In this document: one piece after another, positions 60,939 to 61,845 of the stretch
How positions within the stretch are numbered: position 1 is the stretch's first letter
Layout of the letters: the number at the start of each line of letters is the position of its first letter
Source of the DNA: a virus
Reading direction: 5' to 3' (one strand)
Length of the DNA stretch: 61,845 nt
IMG/VR virus record: IMGVR_UViG_3300028372_000243
Coordinates: 1 to 61,845 of that record
Position numbers and translations under genes: made by a program
The notes under the pieces: model-generated
Seen by the model: only the letters and a program-made list of their open reading frames with translations
Told to the model about the DNA's origin: nothing
The model's database searches: none

Positions 60939-61845
60939 ATGGCAAAGCGCATAGACATACCACGTGACGACCTTCGATATCACCTCGAAGCCGGTTTGTC
61001 GTATGCTGATATTGCCGACAAGTATGGGTGCAGCGCATCCACGATTAGTAAACGGGTAAAGGAGTACGGTTTGGATAAACCTTTGGAGTCAAGTGAAAAT
61101 CGGAGTGACGATATGAGTGAAGATAAAAAGCCAGAGATGGGTATCGGGTTGGACATTGGTACGATGAACCTTGTGTCCGCTCGTAAGATCGGTACGTCGG
61201 TTGAGACGAAACGTGTGCGTGATGCTTTCCTTGACCTCGATATCGACGCCAAGAAGATGCTCAAGCTGTCGGGTGTTAGTTTCATCGAATATGATGATCG
61301 CATTCTGATTTTGGGCGACCCCGCAATCGAAACAGCCAACCTGTTTAAGCGGGAAGCTCGGCGTCCCTTGTCACAGGGTCTGATTTCCTCTTCGGAAATT
61401 GATGCGCTCGAAGTCCTGTCGATTTTGATCGAACAGGTGGTAGGCAAGCCCCAAGAGGAGGGTGAAGTTTGCTACTATTCGATCCCTGCAGCCCCTCTGG
61501 ATATGCCGGGTCAAGACGTCGTGTACCACGAGGCTGTGTTCGCAAAGATCCTCGACGAGCTAGGATACGACCCTATTTCGGGCAACGAGGCGATGGCGAT
61601 CATTTATTCGGAATGCGCTAGCGACAATTTTAGCGGAATCGGCATTAGCTTCGGTTCCGGGATGGTCAACTGCGCCCTTTCGTACATGACCATGCCGATC
61701 ATGGAGTTTTCGTTGGCCCGATGCCTGTCTAAAGATTTCCCGATTGATACGCCTTCTGGTATGAAACCAGTTTCGGGAATCCGACCCGGTGACTTGGTAT
61801 TAGGTCAGGACGGAGCATATACCGAAGTCCTAGAAGTATTTAACA
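60939..61845 (+). CDS. HTH plus actin-like ATPase, interrupted by an intein (partial)
   Basis: Open to the window edge (302 residues visible). Residues 1-48 (YHLEAGLSYADIADKYGCSA, STISKRVKEYGL) form a helix-turn-helix. From residue 68, GIGLDIGTMNL is the actin/MreB-type phosphate-1 loop. CYYSIPAAPLD follows, and near residue 233 GIGISFGSGMVNCALSYM is phosphate-2. After EFSLAR the chain continues with Cys262 as an intein start. The start at 60939 has no ribosome site, whereas ATG 61113 has GGAG upstream, giving a form without the HTH. Likely a filament-forming ATPase, perhaps for positioning or segregating phage DNA. Confidence 0.85.
   Translation, partial: MAKRIDIPRDDLRYHLEAGLSYADIADKYGCSASTISKRVKEYGLDKPLESSENRSDDMSEDKKPEMGIGLDIGTMNLVSARKIGTSVETKRVRDAFLDLDIDAKKMLKLSGVSFIEYDDRILILGDPAIETANLFKREARRPLSQGLISSSEIDALEVLSILIEQVVGKPQEEGEVCYYSIPAAPLDMPGQDVVYHEAVFAKILDELGYDPISGNEAMAIIYSECASDNFSGIGISFGSGMVNCALSYMTMPIMEFSLARCLSKDFPIDTPSGMKPVSGIRPGDLVLGQDGAYTEVLEVFN
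61722..61845 (+). other. N-terminal splicing segment of an intein (partial)
   Basis: From Cys262 the chain reads CLSKDFPIDTPSGMKPVSGI, then RPGDLVLGQDGAYTEVLEVF. This fits intein block A: a catalytic Cys, a short beta segment, 'G-x-x-x-V' and the 'GDxVLxxDG' turn. The insertion follows EFSLAR, where actin-like homologues usually continue with a GGDWID-type motif. The rest of the intein, and any homing endonuclease, lies beyond the window. Confidence 0.8.

Follow-up and report, generated by a model that had tools for sequence, protein, structure and literature searches.

The best-described counterparts of the element reported here are the VMA/PI-SceI, TliVMA and PI-PfuI inteins, with which it shares a Hint fold carrying an inserted LAGLIDADG endonuclease, a Cys1, the TxxH motif, a terminal His-Asn and a +1 Cys, its structural model matching over the whole length. 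However, identity to these inteins amounts to 11-18%, the host protein family and the insertion site are different and, unlike these types, the element has so far been found in virus contigs only. Another comparable case is the haloarchaeal MCM-d intein, for which the +1 residue must convert on invasion, from Pro to Ser (PMC10643990). Both elements occupy a conserved ATPase and require conversion of the +1 residue (here Gly to Cys), but the host of the MCM-d intein is an archaeal replicative helicase, whereas here it is a phage actin (PMC10643990). With regard to the host protein, the volactin of Haloferax volcanii, which forms dynamic filaments, belongs to the same Pfam family (PF25216); it is, however, a cellular cell-shape protein, whereas the phage gene is part of a block of virion genes and in this case carries an intein (PMC10869688). 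The closest solved folds of the intein-free phage protein are MamK and MreB, although these share 14-18% identity with it, occur in other gene contexts and lack an intein. The open-licence literature, searched for inteins in connection with actin, MreB, ParM, archaeal actin or the cytoskeleton, yielded no description of an actin-family protein that contains one. The mechanism is that of an ordinary homing intein; what is new is which protein hosts it and that such inteins recur at a single site in different phages.

The interrupted volactin gene and its neighbourhood

The window, that is, the whole stretch of DNA analysed, is a virus record of 61,845 bases (IMGVR_UViG_3300028372_000243) classed as a linear fragment. 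Its last open reading frame (60939-61844, plus strand) has no stop codon before the contig end, and the window stops 124 nt into the intein. The features of the locus and of its complete counterpart are the following:

60939..61845, plus strand: 5' part of the intein-bearing volactin (actin-like ATPase) gene, truncated by the contig end (open reading frame; Volactin match, 1.6e-46)
60939..61112, plus strand: in-frame HTH segment, residues 1-58 (HTH_23, 1.5e-5; start-site comparison), fusion uncertain
61113..61721, plus strand: actin core of the N-extein, residues 59-261, opening with an internal Met after a conserved GGAG, the likely true translation start
61140..61169, plus strand: phosphate-1 motif GIGLDIGTMN (sequence; family conservation)
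61635..61670, plus strand: phosphate-2 motif GIGISFGSGMVN (sequence; family conservation)
61722..61845, plus strand: first 124 nt of a class 1 LAGLIDADG intein (364 aa), from Cys1 (CLSKDFP...) (comparison with L002; same-site homologues)
L002:10001-12274: complete volactin gene with its intein, 757 aa, full-length counterpart of the window gene
L002:10908-11875: rest of the intein, beyond the window end
window:55427-58355 and L003:12781-19678: virion-gene block around volactin, in the majority of 81 loci the actin has neck genes on one side and tail-sheath genes on the other

The whole gene was recovered by an IMG/VR scan in two near-identical contigs, L002 and L003, which show no differences along 19.7 kb; of 10,907 nt compared between L002 and the window, 7 differ. 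In the 757-aa frame, residues 1-261 constitute the N-extein (ending in EFSLAR) and residues 262-625 the intein (364 aa, from CLSKDF to VVHN), after which the C-extein opens with C626-GDWID and continues to the end (sequence CGDWIDQNASKAVGS). The sequence-only reading of the window, which had proposed an actin-like ATPase interrupted after EFSLAR by an intein beginning at CLSKDF, is thus borne out by the full gene, since past position 61845 the whole intein could be followed, including block B, the LAGLIDADG endonuclease and a terminal His-Asn followed by Cys, and the actin fold resumes, as anticipated, at a GGDWID-type motif. According to Pfam, N-extein residues 67-261 of the window match Volactin (1.6e-46) and residues 262-299 match Hint_2 weakly (1e-3); the full gene matches Volactin across both extein parts (1.2e-70), LAGLIDADG_3 (1.7e-10) and Intein_splicing (3.9e-8, just under the Pfam curated cut-off).

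The Volactin (PF25216) scores of the intein-free L006 protein (269.9 bits) and of L002 (239 bits) lie well above the curated cut-off of 35. Both phosphate-loop motifs are conserved family-wide, and the D, G, T, M and N of phosphate-1 are invariant in 42 aligned volactins. The AlphaFold2 model of the intein-free L006 core (pLDDT 88) matches MamK, MreB and actin, in agreement with the initial assignment of an actin-like ATPase. Judging from sequence and predicted structure, the extein is a Volactin-family actin of a contractile-tailed phage, which would be expected to form filaments. No PHROGs family covering the actin part was found, and relatives on haloarchaeal megaplasmids are ~40% identical to the phage protein. 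A neck/tail-completion gene is located near volactin, mostly upstream, in 68/81 loci, while a ~593-aa gene (72/81), a zinc-ribbon gene (68/81) and the tail sheath gene (61/81) are usually found downstream. The best guess from gene order alone is that the phage volactin may help to assemble or position virions.

The actin had also been described as fused to an HTH. An HTH sequence is indeed present in the same frame, but the fusion is doubtful, as the segment is kept in few close relatives only (L006, L008 and L010) and its start codons lack a Shine-Dalgarno sequence. The Met opening the actin core (61113) is preceded by GGAG in the window, L008 and L010, and by GAGG in L006. Because a conserved ribosome-binding site precedes this internal start codon, the HTH fusion is uncertain, and an obligatory fusion appears less likely than translation starting at 61113, whether or not a minor share of the product also carries the HTH. 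In L004, a free-standing gene for an HTH-NUMOD3-Vsr/DUF559 endonuclease (L004:9025-9936) abuts the start of the intein-bearing volactin, where L002 has the HTH segment. In a single BLASTP comparison, the window HTH and this Vsr-type endonuclease aligned over 31 residues (26% identity, E 0.001), a weak hint that the segment could be the relic of a similar homing endonuclease.

Anatomy of the intein and its insertion site

Cys1 and block B (T64xxH67) are invariant in the six full alleles aligned, as are the catalytic acids D133 and D237 of the two LAGLIDADG helices (LGRFLGMFLGDG and VGVLEGLLDSDG), so that all splicing residues and endonuclease acids are kept in 6/6 of them. The terminal His-Asn is followed by a nucleophile in L002 (VVHN^C) and in all other alleles (HN^C or HN^S). 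The AlphaFold2 model of the intein (pLDDT 81) matched TliVMA (E 1e-18), PI-SceI and PI-PfuI over its length, its endonuclease part adopting an I-DmoI-like fold. On the basis of its residues, its modelled fold and its precise insertion, the insert is recognised as a canonical class 1 intein with an embedded putative LAGLIDADG homing endonuclease.

The site was defined by comparison with empty alleles. The first IMG/VR scan kept 80 relatives, among which 59 distinct intein-free proteins were aligned; all 59 are continuous through the site, with 0-1 inserted residues versus 364 in L003 and L004, placing the insertion in-frame and precisely at R^GGDWID. The +2 Gly and +3 Asp are invariant in the intein-free proteins, and the +1 residue is Gly in 54/59 of them, the remainder having Ala (two), Cys (two, L026 and L074) or Ser (one, L009). 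Every intein-bearing allele, in turn, has Cys or Ser at +1, and therefore the intein brings its own nucleophile, overwriting the conserved Gly. The two intein-free volactins with Cys at this position, L026 and L074, may, as a speculation, carry scars of past precise intein loss. A further volactin gene (L181:3500-3700) misses ~120 nt across the intein site and has a frameshift, possibly due to mis-repair after endonuclease cutting or to an assembly fault.

In the secondary structure of the L006 model, the insertion point falls at the GGD motif, directly behind the final strand of the phosphate-2 hairpin, which agrees with the earlier placement of the intein beside the nucleotide site. By analogy with actin, we take this point to be the nucleotide pocket, and because the insertion lies there, the unspliced precursor would be unlikely to work as an actin. 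Splicing is presumably needed for folding.

Distribution and transfer among phages

The junction pattern HN-x-GGDWID was used to find further intein-bearing volactins. By sequence, seven or more distinct relatives of the element are recognised at the same site in other phages. Inteins with a +1 Cys at the identical position are carried by L087/L105, L088 (=L154), L092/L098/L089/L103, L093, L101 (=L166) and L104, and those with a +1 Ser by L096 and L097 (=L167). The full alleles align over their whole length with 41-77% identity, with the exception of the far more distant L167 intein (22-27%). On the extein tree of 66 rows, 57 of which are intein-free, the intein-bearing alleles are scattered and the intein label needs at least seven changes. 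The intein-free kin of L092 (L177 and L178) have N-exteins 95% identical to its own, and a single metagenome, 3300011189, holds both intein-bearing and intein-free volactins. When the inteins of L087 and L092 were compared, the endonuclease was the best-kept part (83% aa identity, dN 0.12), versus 71-73% and dN 0.24 for the Hint parts, with dS saturated.

Among the genomes of 84,980 cellular species, the same pattern gave 44 junction matches, none of them a volactin; most of the long frames belong to one 'TDHN(S/T)GDWID' protein family and the remainder are short or unrelated frames. Relaxing the pattern to GGDWVD gave just two matches, both unrelated. INPHARED contained no volactin intein and two volactin records only, both unannotated.

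L002 and L004 are different phages, their N-exteins being 74% identical in DNA and their upstream genes different, and L004 clusters with the intein-free L008 on the extein tree. Between the two, the intein shows no difference in any of its 1,092 nt. Exact identity extends from 3 nt before the intein to 101 nt past it, and a mosaic tract of full identity reaches ~250 nt 3' of the intein, beyond which identity falls to 69-78%; the co-conversion tract thus lies on the 3' side only. An identical intein with one-sided co-conversion in diverged hosts is a strong sequence signature of recent homing. L002/L004 is the one case of clear recent transfer, the others being older and known from few contigs.

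Other inteins were observed in these viruses. The virus to which L002 belongs has, around base 115,800 of the contig (L165:1-2196), an RNA ligase gene that is interrupted immediately downstream of its KIHG motif; two intein halves flank a separate ORF for an HTH endonuclease there, an arrangement resembling a 'fractured gene' that contains a split intein. The L088 record (IMGVR_UViG_3300009514_000001, 222 kb) represents an intein-rich virus, in which Intein_splicing was matched ten times, four of these within a single frame of 2,414 aa.

Proposed homing cycle and its implications

The element is very probably a selfish class 1 LAGLIDADG intein specialised on the phage actin gene, a reading drawn from the sequence for its anatomy, empty sites, distribution and one-sided co-conversion, from which we infer splicing and cleavage. 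The precursor would self-splice through an acyl shift at Cys1, transfer to the +1 Cys and cyclisation of Asn364, and the spliced product would be an actin with Cys where Gly is usual. In co-infecting phages whose volactin gene lacks the intein, the freed endonuclease would then cut that gene at the conserved GGDWID codons, and repair from the intein-bearing copy would insert the intein, the +1 Cys codon and some of the 3' flank.

The earlier proposal that splicing controls whether the filament can form did not find support, as 57 of the 66 tree rows do without an intein and nothing pointed to conditional splicing. A co-opted intein acting as a switch, in which conditional splicing (responding to redox, salt, temperature or infection stage) times actin filament assembly, would fit the location of the insertion at the nucleotide site, where a protein that keeps the intein would probably not function as an actin, and conditional splicing has been reported for other inteins (PMC7360933). 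However, most relatives are intein-free, some with a 95% identical N-extein, and the patchiness of its distribution, its recent transfer and the good preservation of its endonuclease are in keeping with a selfish element, which makes such a switch improbable; the same low probability is given to a domesticated intein that keeps the phage actin inactive until a given infection stage, protein splicing thereby timing a viral cytoskeleton. Even less probable is a dead or degenerate intein, or a pseudogene, from which functional actin is not made, given that all 757 codons are open, the splicing and endonuclease residues are all kept and the C-extein is intact. An assembly chimera, with intein and actin joined in silico, could be suspected from the break of the window contig inside the intein, 127 nt past the start of a shared stretch, but is highly implausible: contigs from several samples repeat these junctions within complete ORFs, and other phages have homologous inteins in the identical position.

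The shared stretch is the one common to L002 and L004, from whose start the window end lies exactly 127 nt away; L091, a second contig of the same allele, has the last 22 nt of the intein at its start. The window probably ends at this point because of an assembly-graph branch (k = 127, an assembler setting deduced from these positions) at an intein shared by more than one phage background. A circular contig split, with the remainder of the gene at the other window end, was discarded, since the first ORFs there are, by sequence, a DNA ligase and a RecD-like helicase.

With the selfish homing intein as the preferred reading, the actin family, represented by a cytoskeletal filament protein, is apparently added to the proteins inhabited by inteins, and the locus offers an example of the obligatory +1 Cys of an intein overwriting a conserved active-site glycine. 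The alleles constitute a natural set in which close relatives lack the intein, diverged phages share an identical copy and the co-conversion tract can be read; within one conserved gene, it becomes possible to trace how a homing element moves among uncultured phages. They also highlight a family of phage actins that has hardly been described and is conserved next to tail genes.
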